Assembly (NCBI GenBank): GCA_011089965.1
Contig: JAANAU010000029.1
Location: forward strand, 1-44,844
Length of the DNA stretch: 44,844 nucleotides
Reading direction: 5' to 3'
Source of the DNA: Magnetococcales bacterium
GTDB lineage: Bacteria > Pseudomonadota > Magnetococcia > Magnetococcales > Magnetaquicoccaceae
Position numbers and translations under genes: made by a program. The notes beneath the pieces are model-generated. The model ran no database searches and had not been told where the DNA came from. It saw only the letters and a list, made by a program, of their open reading frames with translations. Position 1 is the stretch's first letter; each line of letters begins with the position of its first letter. Below are positions 12,942 to 44,766 of this stretch, piece by piece.

Positions 12942-14336
12942 ATGTTCGACTCACTGTCTGACCGCCTGGAGGCGGTTTTCAAGAAGCTGAAGGGACAAGG
13001 TTCCCTGAACGAGAAAAACATCCGTGATGCCATGCGGGAGGTGCGCATGGCGTTGCTGGAGGCCGATGTCCATCTGGATGTGGTCAAGTCGTTCATTGCG
13101 CGCGTGCGGGAAAAATCCCTGGGTCACGAGGTGATGGGGTCGTTGACTCCGGGTCAGCAGGTGATCCATCTGGTTCACAAGGAGTTGATCCATGTGATGG
13201 GTGGGGTCAACGAGCGGTTGAATCTGGCGGCCCAGCCTCCGGTGGTGGTGTTGATGGTGGGTTTGCAAGGCTCGGGCAAGACGACGACAACGGCCAAATT
13301 GGCCAAGCGGTTGATCGAGAAGGAGCGACGCAAGCCACTGTTGGCCTCTCTGGATGTCTACCGGCCTGCGGCCATGGATCAGTTGGCCACGGTGGGTGAG
13401 GCAGTGGGTGCCAAGGTGCTGCCGACATCTGTTGGAGAAAATCCCCGTGACATTGCCAAACGGGCATTGCAGAGCGCGCGCATGGGTGGTTTTGACGTGC
13501 TGTTGCTGGATACGGCGGGTCGATTGCATGTGGATGCCGAGTTGATGACCGAGCTGGTCGATGTGGCCGAACTGGTCAAGCCAACGGAAATCTTGTTGGT
13601 TGTGGACTCGATGACCGGTCAGGATGCGGTCAATGTGGCCCGTTCCTTTGATGAAAAGCTCAACGTGACCGGTGTGATCCTGACCAAGACCGATGGTGAT
13701 GCCCGTGGGGGTGCTGCCTTGTCGGTGCGGCATGTGACGGGCAAGCCGATCAAGTTTTTGGGTACGGGTGAGACGGTGGATGGTTTGGAGCCGTTTCATC
13801 CGGATCGGGTGGCCTCGCGCATCCTGGGTATGGGAGACATTTTGTCTTTGGTGGAAAATGTCCTGGAGAAGGTGGATCTCAAAGAGACCTCCAAGCTTCA
13901 GGAGAAGTTGATGACCTCTGCGGCCTTCACCCTGGAGGATTTTCTGGCCCAGATGCAGCAGATCAAGAAGATGGGACCGTTGGAAGAGTTGATGGCCATG
14001 ATTCCCGGAGTCAAGCAGGCCATGAAAGGGCGTGAGGCCCAGATCGATCCCAAACATATGAAGCGCATTGAGGCCATCATTCTCTCCATGACCCCCGTGG
14101 AGCGACGCAAGCATCAGATTCTCAATGCCTCACGTAAAAAGCGTATTGCCATGGGATCCGGGACCAGTGTGCAAGAGGTCAATCAACTGTTGAAACAGTT
14201 TGTGCAGACCCAGACCATGATGAAACGGTTGGGAAAACTCGGCAACAAAGGGTTCATGCGCAACTTTCCGGGTCTGGGCGGAGGATTGCCGGGTGCCGGT
14301 CTGTTCGGGGGTATGAAACCGCCGGGTATGCCGTAA
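12942..14336 (+). CDS. ffh: Signal recognition particle protein Ffh
   Basis: 464 aa. It is the GTPase and RNA-binding subunit of SRP and targets nascent membrane proteins to FtsY and the translocon. The N domain begins MFDSLSDRLEAVFKKLKGQG. The G domain has GLQGSGKTTTTAKLA (from about residue 107), DVYRPAA, DTAGRL, TKTDGDARGGAAL and GTGE. The methionine-rich M domain (about 325-430) contains MKRIEAIILSMTPVER and SGTSVQEVN, with a Gly/Pro/Met-rich tail. All family landmarks are intact. The stop is only five bases from the end of an unrelated remnant on the opposite strand (14342-14506). Confidence 0.97.
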   Translation: MFDSLSDRLEAVFKKLKGQGSLNEKNIRDAMREVRMALLEADVHLDVVKSFIARVREKSLGHEVMGSLTPGQQVIHLVHKELIHVMGGVNERLNLAAQPPVVVLMVGLQGSGKTTTTAKLAKRLIEKERRKPLLASLDVYRPAAMDQLATVGEAVGAKVLPTSVGENPRDIAKRALQSARMGGFDVLLLDTAGRLHVDAELMTELVDVAELVKPTEILLVVDSMTGQDAVNVARSFDEKLNVTGVILTKTDGDARGGAALSVRHVTGKPIKFLGTGETVDGLEPFHPDRVASRILGMGDILSLVENVLEKVDLKETSKLQEKLMTSAAFTLEDFLAQMQQIKKMGPLEELMAMIPGVKQAMKGREAQIDPKHMKRIEAIILSMTPVERRKHQILNASRKKRIAMGSGTSVQEVNQLLKQFVQTQTMMKRLGKLGNKGFMRNFPGLGGGLPGAGLFGGMKPPGMP

Positions 14337-14341
14337 GCAGA

Positions 14342-14506
14342 TCAGACTTCGTCCTGTTCTGGATCCGTGGGGTTGGCAGCGTGGATGGTCAGAAGCAGTT
14401 CAGACTGGTCGATCAGGCGGTATTCCGGGGTGCGTCCGGAGAGCCTGGAACTCTCCTCCAGGATAATCGGTACACCTTCTCCACGTTTTTCCATGAAGTA
14501 TTGTCG
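14342..14506 (-). pseudogene. C-terminal remnant of an AlbA/Schlafen-type ATP-binding protein gene
   Basis: On the minus strand, 54 codons run from just after an in-frame TAA (14509-14507) to a TGA at 14344-14342. The peptide begins RQYFMEKRGEGVPIILEES and continues through RTPEYRLIDQSELLLTI to an acidic end. This MEKRGEGVPII...LSG..P.Y.LID.SELLLTI pattern is what I recognise as the extreme C-terminus of COG2865-type proteins (N-terminal AlbA_2, C-terminal GHKL-like ATPase). Nothing upstream in any frame continues the family, and a 9-bp inverted repeat (14511-14553) starts right at the break. I read it as the scar of a lost gene. The N-terminal half of a protein of this type is present at 43781-44605. 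Confidence 0.6.
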
Positions 14507-14510
14507 TTAC

Positions 14511-14553
14511 GGCACTGGGCTTGGGATCTTACGAATAGTCGGATCCCAGTGCC
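14511..14553. repeat. Inverted repeat beside the AlbA-type remnant
   Basis: GGCACTGGG (14511-14519) and CCCAGTGCC (14545-14553) form a perfect 9-bp stem around a 25-nt loop that contains a nested GGGATC/GATCCC pair. No T-run follows on either strand, so it is a poor terminator. It abuts the broken end of the remnant at 14342-14506 and may be part of a deletion or insertion scar. Confidence 0.4.
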
Positions 14554-37702: not shown

Positions 37703-38227
37703 TTGTTGGTTCTGTCCGACAGTGGTTACAGCCGAGCAGAGCTGTTGGGTCACAACCATCGCATGGTCAAATCGGATGAGCATCCGCCAGAATTTTATCG
37801 GCAGATGAGGTCCACCATCGTTCACAGGCAGACCTGGCATGGGGAGGTGAAGAATCTCTCCAAGACCGGTCTGTCCCTCGCTTTCGACCCGTCAAAAAGA
37901 TTGTCTCCAAAAGGTGTATGGTTCGGTCAAATCCCTGGTACTGATCATCAACGACATTTTCAAGATCGATGTCGGCGTTTGGACATGGATACGTCCCGAC
38001 GGGATCAATGGTTGCGCCAATTGTACGGGCAGTTGGAGATGTTTGATGCCGATGCCGAGAAGACCCTCTCCAGGCTGGATGAGCATGTGGTTGGTGCGGC
38101 GTGCATGGAACAAGTCATGCGCATGCGCAGGCAGGTGGTCCAGTATGATTTTGATGATGCGAGAGAGACCTTGCTGGCGTTGGCCAAGGTGTTGAATCTG
38201 GCGTTGGAGACAGACCATGGCGGATGA
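37703..38227 (+). pseudogene. Decayed sensor kinase: PAS, H-box scar and C-terminal helix remnants
   Basis: An open frame of 174 codons starts only at TTG with no ribosome-binding site. Its first part (SGYSRAELLGHNHRMVKSDE, then PPEFYRQMRSTI and WHGEVKN) is the middle of a PAS domain with its beginning missing. At about 37914-37980 a different frame reads VKSLVLIINDIFKIDVG, strikingly like the post-H-box helix of histidine kinases (SLLxIINDILDFSKIEAG). From about 37986 the first frame resumes with a helical module (LEMFDADAEKTLSRLDEHV, RRQVVQYDFDDARETLLAL) like the C-terminal helix pair ending the 893-aa kinase next door. I read this as a kinase gene reduced by internal deletions and frameshift. 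A short translated 174-aa protein is an alternative. Confidence 0.55.
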
Positions 38228-40898
38228 AGGCAACCGGGTTCTGGAAGAGGGGAGGGTGTTGCGGCAGTTGGTGGAAACCGTGCCGTTACCGGCCTTCGTG
38301 ATGGCCAGTGCCGGTAAGTTGCTGTTTGCCAACGCGGCCTTTTTTGCCATGTGTGCCAAAATGCCGGTGTTGTATCACGCAGGTCAGGGACGGCTGGTAC
38401 GGTTGTGTGCCGATTTTTTGTTGCATCCGGAGTGGACGCAGTGGAGTCAGGAGATTGAAACGAAAACCGGTTCACATTTGGCCGGGGTGGTGGAGGTGCG
38501 TCTCTCCCGATTGGTCCGGAGTACCGGTGCGCTGCCGATGGTCATGGGGGTGTTGGTGGACCAGACCGAGCTGAAACATATCAGCAACCGGTTGACGAAA
38601 TCGCACACTCAAGCCAAGGAGTTGGCCAGAAAGGCGGAACAAGCCTCCCGGGCCAAAGAGGATTTTTTGGCCAACATGGGCCATGAGATCCGTACTCCGA
38701 TGAATGCCATCATTGGTTTGACCCATTTATGCCTGCAAACCGATCTCACTCTGAAGCAGCGGGACTATTTGGGCAAGATTGCGCTGAGTGCCAATTTGTT
38801 GTTGAAACTGATCAGCGACATTCTGGATTTTTCCAATGTTGAGGCAGGTCGGCTCACCATGGAGATGGTCGAGTTCTCTCTGGAGGAGTTGTTGAGTCGT
38901 GTTGTGGCTTTGGGAGTCAAAGGCTGGGAAAAGGGATTGGAGTGTGTGGTGGATGTGGCATCCAACGTTCCCATGCGTTTGCAGGGAGATGCGCATCGCC
39001 TGGCGCAGGTGTTGAACAGTCTGGTCGGCAATGCGATCAAGTTCACCGAGCAGGGTGGGGTGGTGATTGGCGTGACGCTGCACGAGGAGCTGGCGGAACA
39101 GGTGGTGTTGACGTTTGCGGTGGAAGATACCGGTATCGGCATGTCTGCTGCGCAGGTGGGGCAACTGTTCCAGGGGTTTACCCAGGGAGATGGTTCGGCA
39201 AGTCGCAAGTATGGTGGTACGGGGTTGGGTCTGGCCATTGCCCAACGTCTGGTGACGTGGATGGGGGGGCGGATTGAGGTTGCCAGTGTTCCTGGATTCG
39301 GAAGCCGGTTCACGTTTACCGTCCCTTTGTTGACGGTTGGCACCCGCAGCGCAGCCACACCGGATGTGCTGCCATCCTGGCATGGGCGGCGCTTTCTGGT
39401 GGTGGATGACAATGCCACGGTCAGAAAGGTGCTTGGGGGATTTTTGGCGGGTTGTGGGGCGCAGTTGGTGTGGGCAGCCAGTGGAGAGGAGGCTTTGCAG
39501 GCGGTACGTGCAGCGGATGAGGCGCAGGTTGGTTTTGATCTGGTATTGGTCGATTGGCATCTGCCGGGTTGGAATGGTCTGGAGACCATTCAGCAGATCA
39601 AGAGGGCCGGTTTGTCATCACCTGTGCCGAAAATGGTGATCATGACCGCTTATGGCCAGGAGAATCTGTTGACCAGCGGGGCAGAACAGGGGTTGGTCGA
39701 TGGATTTTTGAGCAAGCCGATCTGGCGTGGGGCGTTGTTGGAGATCATGGCCTGTTTGTTGGGAGCCGGAACCACCTCTGCATCCTGTGCCGCCGAGGAG
39801 GAGGTGGCCACTCTGACCCGTCTGGCCGGGTTGCGGCTGTTGCTGGTGGAAGACGACGAAATCAATCAGGATGTGGCGCGAGAACTGCTCGGTCAGGTTG
39901 GAATACGGGTGATTGTGGCCAATCATGGCCAAGAGGCTCTGGAACGACTTGCAGAGCAGGGTTTTGATCTGATATTGATGGATATCATGATGCCGGTGAT
40001 GGATGGTTATGAAACGGCACGCCGCATCCGGCTTCGGTATGACAGCACTGAGTTGCCCATCATTGCCATGACGGCCCATGCCAGGTCCGGGGATCGGCAG
40101 AGGTGTTTGGATGTGGGCATGAACGATCACATTACCAAGCCGGTGGTGCCACGTGAGCTGTACGGGACGTTGGGGCGTTGGACCCGTCATGGCGGCGAGG
40201 TGGAGCGTTTTTTATCGCAGGATCTGCCTGTTTGGGAACCGATTGAATGTGTGTTGTTTCCTGAAGATTTCTGTCCGGGTATCGATGTGTCCAGAGGATT
40301 GCGCAACGTGGGAGGCGGTATGGTGACTTATCGCGGCGTTTTGGAGAAGTTTGTCCGCAACCAGCGGGATACTGGCCAGAAGTTGCGGCAGGCGCTGGCA
40401 GATCAGGATTGGTCCACCCTGGAGTATATGGCCCATGCTTTGAAAGGGGTATCGGCTTTGATCGGAGCCAAGGCATTGGCGGGTATTGCCAAGGAGATTG
40501 AACAACGGGTCAAACGGACCGAAGAGCGGGAGATGTTGTCAGCGTTGTTGGTGGAGTGTGAAGAGGAGCTTGTCCGTTTGATTGACGAGATCAGTCGTCG
40601 CTTGCAGGAGTTGGATGCTGTGGAAGGGGTGCGGGATGTTCCCGGAGAAGAGGAGCCTGGGGATGTTCCATTATCCGAGGAGATGGCGGCTTTGATGCGG
40701 CATGCGGTGGAGTTGTTGCGTGCCTTTGATTCATCTGTGGATGTGGTTGTGGAGGAGATGGTTCCTTTGGCGCGGGGAGTGGCGCGCAAGGAGCGGGTGC
40801 AGGCCATGCGTCGGGTGTTGTCGGACTATGATTTTGATGAGTGTCTGGCTCTGTTGCACAGTTGGGCTGAGGAAGAGGGGGTGGTTTTGTATTCATGA
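38217..40898 (+). CDS. Soluble hybrid histidine kinase with two receivers and HPt
   Basis: 893 aa with no membrane helix, so cytoplasmic. Order: a small PAS-like domain (about 15-120), coiled linker, H-box [11 protein letters not shown] with His156, ATPase domain ([31 protein letters not shown]), receiver 1 (Asp446 in [13 protein letters not shown]), receiver 2 (Asp589 in [19 protein letters not shown]), HPt domain with His740 in [14 protein letters not shown], and a last helical module with [11 protein letters not shown]. The first receiver has Trp-His after the Asp, a common variant. The ATG overlaps the end of the decayed kinase (37703-38227), whose C-terminal module resembles this one's, suggesting past duplication of the locus. 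Confidence 0.9.
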
Positions 40899-40937: not shown

Positions 40938-43766
40938 ATGAGCGAATATCTGGGGATGCGTTGGTTCAAATGCGATCTGCATGTTCATACGCCAGCAGAT
41001 CCACAGCATTGGCAAGGCTCTCCCATTGTTCCCGGCCAGGAATCACAGAATGCCACAGCGTTTGCAGAGGCGTGCCATCGAACTGGATTGGATGTGATCG
41101 CTGTCACGGATCACAATTTTCTTAGTAAAGACTTTTTGCCCTATCTCAAGGATGCACTGGCTGAGATTGAGCATAAACATGGACACAAAATAACATTGTT
41201 TCCAGGATTCGAATTTGAAGCCGATGTTGGAAAAGGCATGCATGTACTTTGTCTTTTTGAACCGGATACGAATTTGTTGACAATTGACCATATTTTGACG
41301 GAATGTGGGGTTTATCACCCAAGAATTCAGAATGGCAGGCTTCAGAAATCGGTTAAGAGGTTGCCTGAGATTCTTGGTATTATTCAAAAGGGAAATGAGC
41401 AATCGGGATGGCGTGGAATTGTGATTGTCCCGCATGTTTTTGAAAACAGTTTGTTTGATAATGACCGGATCAGCGAATGGCTGCAACAGGAAGAATTCAT
41501 CAATCCTGATCTTTTGGCGGTTGAAGTTCCGAAACCCGTCGAAAGAATGGGAACGAATTTTAAAAAATTGTTTCGTTCAGGATCAGATTGTGATCCCGGA
41601 TGGCGACGATCCCGCCCCATTGCCACCTTGATGGGATCTGACAATAAAAAACTGATCGAGAGAGATGCATCAGGTCGACCGGAGGCCAACACTCTGGGAT
41701 ATCGACACACCTGGATCAAGATGTCACACCCGGGCATTGAGTCGTTGCGTCAGGCTTTTCTGGATCCGAATTCCCGTATTCGTCCATCTGGAGACGATCC
41801 GTCCAGTCAGGAAAAACACGCGCGCATCTTGTCTCTGTCGGTAAGCAATGCCGCTTTCCTGGGGGATCAGCAAATCGTTTTTTCTCCCAATTTTAACGCC
41901 ATCATTGGCGGTCGCGGCAGCGGCAAGTCGGCGCTCCTTGAAGGAATGCGTCTGGCCATGGGCAAGGATGATGATCCAAAGTTGGATGACAGAGCCAGGG
42001 AGAAGGTCAGGCGCATCAAAGAGCTGCTGACAAAAATGGCTGGTTCCGAAGTGCGGGTCCATTGGCGTGATGCCGATGGAGTGGAGGATCATCTGCTTTA
42101 CGTGGTCGCACAGGAAGGAAATGGTTCCTGCCGTGTTGAGGGTCGATCCATGACGGATCTCTCTTCCTTTCTGAGGGAACTGCCGGTACAATTTTTCAGC
42201 CAGCAGCAGTTGAATCAGATCACGGAACGCGGTGGAAATGTGCTATTGACCCTCCTGGATGAGTTCTCCAGAGAGGAATTGAAACCTTTGTTGCAAGAAG
42301 AGGCAGAACTGCGACGTGAGATTGAGCAATTATTTATATTTTCAACCGCTCTTGAGCAAACAGAGAAGGATTTGAGTCGTCTGGAACAGGAAAGTGCCGA
42401 CCTGGAACGGCAATGGGAGGTCCGTTCCGCATTGCAGGAGGATGCCCGCAAACATCAAGGACTCAAGGCGCAACAAGCCTATATTCAAAAACTGAAAAGT
42501 GCGTTGGACGAGGATGCTGCTCGTTTGATGGATGTCGCGAACGATATTTGGGAAACGCATGTAGATTTGGGATCTTCCATCGAACGATGGCCTCACGGAG
42601 TTTGGTTTCAGGAAAAGGATAATCGGGTTTTGCAAGCCAAGGAAACCTTGAAAGTCGCCATTGGCCGAGCGGTGGAAACCTACCGCAAGACTGTTTTCGA
42701 GATGTTTGGAGGCTTGGAATGGTTTGACATCCAACAGCAGTGCAACCAGGCGGATGAGACGTTTGCCCAGGCTTGTGCGGCCAAGGGTATTGATCCTGCA
42801 GACGTCAGTCGGATTCAGGAGATTGGCCAAAAGAGAACCCTGAAAAAGCAGGAATTGGACCAGAAGAGGAAAGAACGTCTCCGCTTGCAACAGCTTCTGG
42901 CGAAGATGCCGGAATTGTTCCAGCAACTACATGACAATTGGTTGGCCTGTCATGATGTTCGCAAGCGCGTCGCCGATGAGATCGTGCAGTCCGCAAAATC
43001 TGATAACAAATCGGTGATCGGATTGATGGTATCCTATTTTTCAGATGCGGTTTTATTCAAAGCGGTCTGGAACAGACTCAGTACAGATGGCAGAACGCGA
43101 TTGGGACGAAACTGGGAGGAAATTGGAGGCATTGTCCGAGACGAATATCTTGAAAGTGGTCATACCAACCATTTATCCTTATGGAACATGTTGCAATCCT
43201 GGATGGAATCTGAGGACAGTATGCCGGCCCATGTTCAAGAGAAATTAAGGAGAATTCAAGTAACCGTTGTAGACATCAAATCGTATTTGTCTGGTACTGC
43301 TCGCAAAACATGGCAGGAAACGCAGCTAATCCGTATCGACGACACAGTGGATCTTGTGTTGTACCAAAGCAATGGACATGACGAGGTTGGTCGGGTTTCG
43401 GATGGCACTCTTTCCGATGGTCAACGTAACACAGCGGCTTTGGCCATGTTGCTGGCAAGAGGGAATCATCCGTTGGTTATTGACCAACCCGAAGACGAGT
43501 TGGATTCCAATTTTATTTTTCAGGAACTTGTCCCCATGCTGCGTCGATTGAAGCATTCCCGCCAGATCATCCTGGTCACCCATAACGCCAATCTTCCCGT
43601 CAACGGAGATGCCGAATTGGTGTATGCGCTTAAAGCGCAAGGGGGGCGTGGCGTCAAACGCGCCGCAGGAGGACTGGATCGGACGGATGTGACCCAGGCA
43701 ATCCTGGACATCATGGAGGGATCTGAGCAGGCTTTCCGCCAGCGCAGGGAAAAGTACCATTTTTGA
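40938..43766 (+). CDS. PHP-domain SMC-like ATPase (TrlF / ppl-type, putative phage defence)
   Basis: 942 aa from ATG 40938; AAGGAGG lies seven bases before it. The N-terminal PHP phosphoesterase has metal motifs DLHVHTP (His15, His17), VTDHN (Asp58-His59), FPGFEFE, VPHVFE and GSDNK. The second part is an SMC/RecF-like ATPase: Walker A GGRGSGKS (324-331), coiled-coil segments around 455-500 and 640-690, ABC signature LSDGQ (825-829), Walker B LVIDQPEDELD (Asp849) and the H-loop THN. This PHP plus ATPase architecture corresponds to TrlF-family proteins and to the 'ppl' system reported as anti-phage by Gao and co-workers (2020). The gene is AT-richer than its neighbours, a sign of transfer. Nuclease substrate unknown. 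Confidence 0.88.
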   Translation: MSEYLGMRWFKCDLHVHTPADPQHWQGSPIVPGQESQNATAFAEACHRTGLDVIAVTDHNFLSKDFLPYLKDALAEIEHKHGHKITLFPGFEFEADVGKGMHVLCLFEPDTNLLTIDHILTECGVYHPRIQNGRLQKSVKRLPEILGIIQKGNEQSGWRGIVIVPHVFENSLFDNDRISEWLQQEEFINPDLLAVEVPKPVERMGTNFKKLFRSGSDCDPGWRRSRPIATLMGSDNKKLIERDASGRPEANTLGYRHTWIKMSHPGIESLRQAFLDPNSRIRPSGDDPSSQEKHARILSLSVSNAAFLGDQQIVFSPNFNAIIGGRGSGKSALLEGMRLAMGKDDDPKLDDRAREKVRRIKELLTKMAGSEVRVHWRDADGVEDHLLYVVAQEGNGSCRVEGRSMTDLSSFLRELPVQFFSQQQLNQITERGGNVLLTLLDEFSREELKPLLQEEAELRREIEQLFIFSTALEQTEKDLSRLEQESADLERQWEVRSALQEDARKHQGLKAQQAYIQKLKSALDEDAARLMDVANDIWETHVDLGSSIERWPHGVWFQEKDNRVLQAKETLKVAIGRAVETYRKTVFEMFGGLEWFDIQQQCNQADETFAQACAAKGIDPADVSRIQEIGQKRTLKKQELDQKRKERLRLQQLLAKMPELFQQLHDNWLACHDVRKRVADEIVQSAKSDNKSVIGLMVSYFSDAVLFKAVWNRLSTDGRTRLGRNWEEIGGIVRDEYLESGHTNHLSLWNMLQSWMESEDSMPAHVQEKLRRIQVTVVDIKSYLSGTARKTWQETQLIRIDDTVDLVLYQSNGHDEVGRVSDGTLSDGQRNTAALAMLLARGNHPLVIDQPEDELDSNFIFQELVPMLRRLKHSRQIILVTHNANLPVNGDAELVYALKAQGGRGVKRAAGGLDRTDVTQAILDIMEGSEQAFRQRREKYHF

Positions 43767-43780
43767 AACGGACAACATCC

Positions 43781-44605
43781 ATGTATGAAGCCACTGACGA
43801 ACTGATGCGCGAAATTCTCGCGGGTGAGGACACCTTCCTGGAATTCAAGGAGGTGGTTTTCCGTGGAGACCAACCCCGTTTTGCCAACGAGGAAGGCCGC
43901 GCACCCAAAATGATCGCAGAAGTTTTCGTGAGCATGGCCAACACCGAAGGCGGGACTGTGGTGTTTGGTATCAACAAATTTGGGGAAGTGGTGGGCATCG
44001 CTCCCGACAAACGCAATCTCCTGGAACAAGGGGTGGTCAATTGTGCTTTGGACTCCTGTGAGCCAAGAGGCAGCCTGGAGCCGCGATTGAATTGGCGTTA
44101 TTTGCCAAATCTTGATGGTGTGGACAAGTTGGTCTTGCATGTCGATGTTCCAAAATCGCGTTATTATGTTCATCACACTTCAGATGGAAAATTTCTGAAA
44201 CGGGTTGGCAGTCATCGCACCCCCATTCCTGCAGAGCAACTAGGACGTTTACTGGCAACCAGAAGTTTGTTGATGCCCTTCGAGGAACGTCCTTGTCCTG
44301 GCACATTGCTGGACTTGTTCAATCGGGAACGTTTTGATGCCTACTATACGAGACGCTTTGGTTTCCCATTGCGTGAAAGCGGCGTTCCTGTCGAGCGTTT
44401 ACTGGAAAATTTGAAGTTGGGGCTGCGGATGGATGATGGTTCGTGGCGTTTGACCAATCTTGGGGTGTTATTGTTCACGGATCGTCCACAAAACCACCTG
44501 ACCGGTGCTTACATCGAAATCGCCATGCACGATCATGCAGTGGCCGATGGAAAGACTCTGGATGTCAAACGTTTTGAAGGGCCGGTTACCGTGAAAGAGT
44601 GCTGA
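43781..44605 (+). pseudogene. AlbA_2 / Schlafen-like protein gene, truncated at its 3' end
   Basis: About 274 aa from ATG 43781 (a TTG at 43763 overlapping the previous stop is also possible). The N-terminus has the AlbA_2/Schlafen core: FLEFKEVVFRGD, then MIAEVFVSMANTEGGTVVFGIN and GEVVGIAPD, followed by a winged region (LGRLLATRSLLMPFEERPC) and the segment WRLTNLGVLLFTD, where COG2865 proteins lead into the GHKL-like ATPase part. The frame then reads FEGPVTVKEC and stops. Family-like sequence ends at the exact base (about 44586) where an 89-bp tandem duplication begins, so the ATPase half is missing. It lies 14 bases after the PHP-ATPase gene, presumably as its partner. A functional short protein cannot be excluded. 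Confidence 0.7.
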
Positions 44606-44766
44606 ACAGAAGACAATAAACCACTATTCGCCTTTTTTACCTCAGAAAGACGATGCCGCAGACAGGATTGAAATTTACCGTGAAAGAGTGCTGAACAGAA
44701 GACAATAAACCACTATTCGCCTTTTTTACCTCAGAAAGACGATGCCGCAGACAGGATTGAAATTTA
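44586..44766 (+). repeat. 89-bp perfect tandem duplication
   Basis: The stretch starting TTACCGTGAAAGAGTGC at 44586 recurs without mismatch at 44675, giving two 89-bp copies (44586-44674 and 44675-44763) plus a shared TTA at 44764-44766. The first copy forms the last six codons and stop of the truncated AlbA_2 gene; each copy contains GCCTTTTTTACC and ends GACAGGATTGAAAT. The two sides of the repeat belong to different genes, so it lies at a rearrangement junction. It could be a duplicated insertion-sequence end; I do not recognise the element. Confidence 0.9.

Follow-up and report, generated by a model that had tools for sequence, protein, structure and literature searches.

The window discussed here is the whole of contig JAANAU010000029.1 (C74; 44,844 nucleotides), part of a 3.66-Mb draft genome of a Magnetococcales bacterium that consists of 80 contigs. 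Its last 3.9 kb carry, on the + strand, two neighbouring open reading frames (ORFs), 40938–43766 and 43781–44605, which are spaced by 14 bases. They correspond to trlF, coding for a PHP-SMC ATPase of 942 amino acids (aa), and to what is left of trlG, coding for a protein with a Schlafen-type AlbA_2 domain, the sole Pfam domain found in that frame. The window ends just after the latter. The two genes are a damaged, ordinary member of a known gene pair with a probable role in defence. Indeed, trlF and trlG were published in 2020 as part of the temperature restriction locus (TRL; trlR-trlF-trlG) of Photorhabdus laumondii (PMC7554251), and BREX-linked backup effectors of the Schlafen RNase type have been catalogued too (PMC12839542). 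The initial annotation of this DNA was thus largely right in what it observed, and is now better supported than the sequence alone allowed, but its claim to an 'undescribed' two-component variant of a single-gene system does not stand.

TrlF of the window is a full-length protein of its family, made of a PHP domain resembling that of endonuclease Q (EndoQ) and of an SMC/Rad50-type ATPase. Its residues 6–941 cover positions 2–944 of the 944 positions of the family profile, and it is 87% and 72% identical to the proteins of genomes G030 and G029, respectively. In an AlphaFold model built on 45 sequences (mean predicted local distance difference test, pLDDT, 87), the N-terminal domain matches EndoQ (5zb8_C, Z 17.6 with 220 residues aligned; 7k30_A, Z 17.4), while residues 295–928 match SMC and Rad50 heads with Z values of 17–19.5. 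The Pfam PHP profile gives 13.9 bits, under its cut-off of 26.4 bits; the domain is supported despite this score because the predicted structure matches EndoQ. Its metal motifs, first described as intact, are nearly so: H15 and H17 (the HxH of motif I), D58, H59, E92, H102, H166 and D235 are all there, and only the last histidine of motif IV is replaced, by a lysine (K237), in the subfamily of the window protein. The SMC-type motifs of the ATPase (Walker A, LSDGQ signature, Walker B and H-loop) were borne out in full and are conserved in relatives (Table 1). The annotated likeness to both TrlF and Ppl holds for TrlF. PADLOC labels the protein Ppl, with 181 bits, and we rejected this membership, as the protein reaches 234 bits against an equivalog cut-off of 1000 bits (NF042955). 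Several genomes of the order also encode TrlF-like ATPases devoid of a PHP domain, about 630–690 aa long (loci L027, L029–L032, L039 and L040) and never located beside TrlG.

The AlbA_2/Schlafen domain and the short spacing noticed at the outset are both there, but the 275-aa product is not a complete protein. Homologues of TrlG are 424–444 aa long and comprise a C-terminal HATPase_c_4 domain, found for example in the close homologue from G029. The window ORF holds the first ~268–270 codons, and this 5′ part is 95% identical to the 436-aa homologue of G030. The missing 3′ part (homologue residues 268–428, 93% identical), which corresponds to the HATPase_c_4 side of the gene, lies on another contig of the assembly (C75:146303–146785), 108 bases from its end. 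The last codons and the stop of the shortened frame are provided by a tandem duplication; this is what had been perceived as rearranged DNA at the end of the pair, and it involves a repeat that is present at five other contig ends. The simplest reading is that a multi-copy mobile element inserted in trlG, although an assembly break at the repeat could also account for the picture. Interrupted in this way, trlG probably no longer gives the module a working effector in its genome.

Table 1. Features of the trlF-trlG pair and of the contig end in the window
Feature	Coordinates	Strand	Support
trlF, PHP-SMC ATPase, 942 aa, intact	40938..43766	+	NF045780 (TrlF_fam_ATP), 528.5 bits, cut-off 350
PHP domain, EndoQ-like fold, residues 8–286	40959..41795	+	AlphaFold model compared with EndoQ
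Walker A, GGRGSGKS, residues 324–331	41907..41930	+	G324, G327, G329, K330 and S331 invariant in 45 sequences
ABC signature, LSDGQ, residues 825–829	43410..43424	+	S826 and G828 invariant; Q829 nearly so
Walker B with D-loop, residues 846–853 (DQPED = 849–853)	43473..43496	+	D849, Q850, P851 and E852 invariant
H-loop, THN, residues 881–883	43578..43586	+	H882 and N883 invariant; T881 nearly so
trlG, 5′ part only (codons ~1–268/270): Schlafen/AlbA_2 core and start of middle region	43781..44585	+	PF04326, 54.8 bits
SLFN_AlbA_2 domain, residues 16–148, with E16, E21 and K66	43826..44224	+	PF04326, 54.8 bits, cut-off 25.3
89-bp tandem duplication of the end of a multi-copy element	44586..44763		Copies 44586–44674 and 44675–44763, 100% identical
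Terminus of the multi-copy mobile element, contig end	44675..44844		Same sequence ends contigs C34, C79, C7, C66 and C38

The fold of the TrlG model resembles that of known RNases. Its best matches, with Z 10–10.8 overall, are the tRNase domain of SAMD9 (9o0d, Z 10.7) and the N-domains of SLFN13, SLFN11 and SLFN14 (Z about 10); matches under Z 6 (Alba, IF3, methyltransferases) were disregarded. The three catalytic acids of SLFN13 are E205, E210 and D248. The two glutamates are retained in the window protein as E16 and E21. The third position is occupied by K66 there, and mostly by an aspartate in other TrlGs.

The pairing of the two genes was followed in 48 genomes of the order (Magnetococcales), in a scan of named genomes and in viral contigs. 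TrlF relatives of any kind occur in half of the genomes of the order (24/48). Among hits above the family cut-off, an AlbA_2 gene lies directly downstream in 20 of 21 PHP-bearing loci, with a single unpaired exception and one further locus cut by a contig end. None of eight shorter relatives without PHP has this neighbour. Conversely, among the top 20 full-length matches of TrlG within the order, 19 adjoin a TrlF gene, which more distant AlbA_2 proteins do not. The named genomes added 78 TrlF loci, from Proteobacteria, Bacillota, Chloroflexi, Actinobacteria, Nitrospirota, Rhodothermota, Elusimicrobia, cyanobacteria, an ANME-1 archaeon and others; in over half of these loci, TrlG comes right after TrlF and on the same strand. 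When all loci are pooled, this arrangement holds for 68 of the 119 that could be tested. Such shares err on the high side, since paired TrlFs were used to make the search profile. The distance matrices of the two proteins are strongly correlated (Mantel r 0.94 for 64 pairs; the best of 1000 permutations reached 0.14), so the two diverge together. The pairing is not due to chance, and its conservation, suspected from this single locus, is confirmed. It is not permanent either: a FastTree phylogeny shows 18 changes between TrlFs with and without the partner, so that TrlG has been gained or lost repeatedly.

A role in defence is suggested by the neighbourhoods of these relatives. A Citrobacter IncC plasmid has the pair inside a type I restriction operon (hsdM-hsdS-trlF-trlG-hsdR), and a Vibrio plasmid reads pglX-trlF-trlG-pglZ-brxL. 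Two Gammaproteobacteria (L123, L134) show the order BrxC-PglX-TrlF-TrlG-PglZ-BrxL. Closer to the window, G021, a genome of the same order, displays PglX, AbiU/AIPR, a PtuA-like ATPase, an unknown gene, TrlF, TrlG and PglZ, in this order (L069, on contig C83, of the same subfamily as the window), as well as a second pair in the arrangement BrxC (DUF6079)-PglXI-TrlF-TrlG (L072, on C162). The closest relatives of the window TrlF outside the order (46–51% identical) reside in BREX operons without TrlG, such as BrxC-PglX-TrlF-(HEC-06-like gene)-PglZ-BrxL. One TrlF gene from a putative viral contig (L179) is likewise surrounded by BREX genes, within their operon. In many TrlFs (L085–L089, L094, L095, L058, L059, L107, L123, L134) the HxH of PHP motif I has become QxQ or QVN. 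Motif I is degenerate in six of eight BREX-embedded TrlFs, compared with 10 of 36 (Fisher p 0.02, a figure that ignores relatedness and is not used as proof). This loss, most often met in TrlFs embedded in BREX or restriction-modification (R-M) loci, suggests, as far as sequence motifs tell, that a dead nuclease domain may have been retained as a sensor.

At the window itself, the composition of the pair is deviant. The G + C content at third codon positions (GC3) is 0.51 for trlF and 0.53 for trlG, whereas the 25 further long ORFs of the window, a few of which might be spurious, have 0.66 ± 0.04, and sliding windows give the same AT-richness, as had been noted at first sight. This is consistent with acquisition. 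Horizontal gain had been proposed on this ground, and the composition agrees with it, but proof at the level of the site failed since the hybrid histidine kinase directly upstream of trlF (38217–40898) has no clear orthologue in sister genomes, its best matches being 48–49% identical; hence no empty site was found there. Just 39 bases separate this kinase from trlF, leaving no trlR, the small regulator, upstream of the pair. A relic of the C-terminus of a second trlG, about 50 aa long (55 bits; RQYFMEKRGEGVPII...), occupies the gap between ffh/SRP54 (12942–14336) and a 746-aa ORF, on the minus strand at 14342–14536. An earlier TRL module was lost at this site, which shows that such modules come and go.

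How might the pair work? We propose, with a probability of about 0.6, that TrlF-TrlG is an accessory two-gene anti-phage system of the abortive type, where TrlF would be the sensor and TrlG a Schlafen RNase acting as the effector. The SMC/Rad50-like ATPase and the EndoQ- or Ppl-like PHP domain of TrlF would monitor DNA ends, the nucleotide state, or both, and the PHP domain may additionally digest DNA. Infection would be needed to awaken TrlG, or else the blocking by a phage of a BREX or type I restriction system that accompanies it. The Schlafen core of TrlG, once released, would attack RNA, with tRNA as the probable target, and growth would stop. The C-terminal HATPase_c_4 part may gate TrlG, or dimerise it. 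In Photorhabdus, the one published source of the heat phenotype, the suppressor mutations by which cells regain growth at 36 °C map to trlG, none to trlF; deletion of the operon likewise restores this growth, and transcription goes up upon temperature up-shift (PMC7554251). Because the arrest is relieved by loss of trlG, and not of trlF, TrlG appears as the growth-stopping part, and the arrest at 36 °C could be a misfiring of this same pair. The position of the pair within BREX and type I operons points in turn to a back-up or guard role, as for PARIS.

Several facts weigh against this proposal. The published pair is tied to temperature, not to phage: the word 'phage' is absent from the paper on the Photorhabdus locus, which contains no phage test (PMC7554251), and our literature search found no phage assay of TrlF-TrlG. 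No recognised defence island was found around the pair in the window, where it stands at a contig end that hides the downstream side and where none of the eight ORFs scanned with Pfam is a defence gene, nor in most of the order, where it is flanked by unrelated genes; the defence association initially put forward is seen in relatives, and was not found at this locus. TrlG is missing from about 40% of the TrlF loci that could be tested, and none of the 41 TrlF loci on viral contigs (L179–L219) has TrlG beside it, so that TrlF must also work without it; a P2-like Yersinia phage, too, carries TrlF alone. The main weakness of the RNase reading, for the window copy, resides in the lysine found, in its subfamily, at the position of the third catalytic aspartate of SLFN13, which makes these TrlGs putative RNases.

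Both the missing acid and the abundance of TrlF loci without TrlG, among them all those on viral contigs, would suit a reading where TrlF alone is the defence protein, an exonuclease acting at DNA ends in the manner of Ppl, with TrlG as a DNA-binding regulator or safety device rather than an effector. Ppl does act as a single gene, and proteins combining AlbA_2 and HATPase_c_4 are frequently annotated as regulators or as RecG-like. We hold this to be unlikely, however: that the Photorhabdus arrest yields to loss of trlG and not of trlF fits an effector (PMC7554251), known tRNases are the closest folds to TrlG, and the PHP HxH is lost (KCALQVN) in many BREX- or R-M-embedded TrlFs that do have a TrlG partner, so that a nuclease role there cannot rest on TrlF. 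The restriction of suppressors to trlG (PMC7554251) could equally point to a pair of the toxin-antitoxin style, TrlF merely restraining the toxin TrlG and defence being incidental, and the presence of pairs on plasmids, together with the turnover witnessed by the trlG relic of the window contig, would go in the same direction. Yet an antitoxin would not be expected to occur by itself nearly as often as TrlF does, some TrlG-like genes are solo too, and addiction pairs are not typically embedded between BREX and R-M genes, which makes this interpretation quite improbable.

It is very unlikely that the locus merely regulates growth according to temperature, as its original name implies, and plays no part in the response to phage. 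The growth permitted at 36 °C by its deletion and the rise of its transcription upon up-shift speak for this view (PMC7554251), but a thermal regulator would hardly be scattered over many phyla and an archaeon, or lodged in operons of BREX and R-M systems, and phage went untested in that study. Housekeeping DNA-repair genes adjacent by chance would explain an SMC/Rad50-like head and an EndoQ-like PHP domain; this is scarcely credible for an accessory, patchy gene (half of the genomes of the order), of deviant composition, which diverges together with a partner having the fold of an RNase.

Returning to the sensor and effector proposal, a broader version of it may be offered, tentatively and with more doubt than belief. 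TrlF-TrlG would be a widespread guardian module that either stands alone or plugs into BREX and type I operons, its PHP-SMC protein licensing a Schlafen RNase upon sensing DNA ends, nucleotide loss or anti-restriction, an arrangement reminiscent of PARIS or PrrC although the parts are unrelated; temperature restriction in Photorhabdus would then be autoimmunity. The defence reading of the pair joins three published strands, namely the heat-arrest locus of Photorhabdus, the Ppl/TrlF anti-phage nucleases and the BREX Schlafen RNases, between which our literature search found no connection. Were it right, a puzzling temperature phenotype would be explained by the misfiring of an immune system, and a defined sensor partner would be known for bacterial Schlafens.

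With reference to known systems, the nearest is the TRL locus itself, where TrlF is directly followed, as in the window, by a protein of the AlbA_2 plus HATPase_c_4 type; both domains are described in Photorhabdus TrlG (PMC7554251), and in P. akhurstii, where trlF and trlG are 26 bases apart, TrlG also has the two. The window differs by the lack of an upstream trlR and by its interrupted trlG. Its TrlF, about 22–25% identical to that of the P. akhurstii type, retains the PHP HxH, while the P. akhurstii protein is without it. Ppl of Escherichia coli is an anti-phage PHP single-stranded DNA 3′–5′ exonuclease, freed by nucleoside triphosphate depletion and 3′ ends (PMC12904381). It shares with the window TrlF the association of a PHP domain with an ATPase, but Ppl is a single gene, and the window protein falls far under its equivalog cut-off. 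TrlG has the Schlafen core fold of the BREX-linked Schlafen RNases, of human SLFN11, SLFN13 and SLFN14, and of SAMD9; like the BREX-linked enzymes it has a C-terminal minimal kinase-like ATPase part and is present in BREX loci, the difference being the lysine that replaces the third catalytic acid in the window subfamily. TrlF, PHP and Ppl go unmentioned in the text of the paper on these RNases (PMC12839542). Finally, PARIS (AriA-AriB) similarly combines, near BREX or R-M genes, an ABC-type ATPase sensor with a separate nuclease that cuts tRNA. Its AriB is a TOPRIM nuclease and its AriA an OLD-type ATPase, neither of which exists in the window pair, where the partner is an AlbA_2 protein; PARIS responds to Ocr, and it is as a back-up or guard that TrlF-TrlG may be likened to it.

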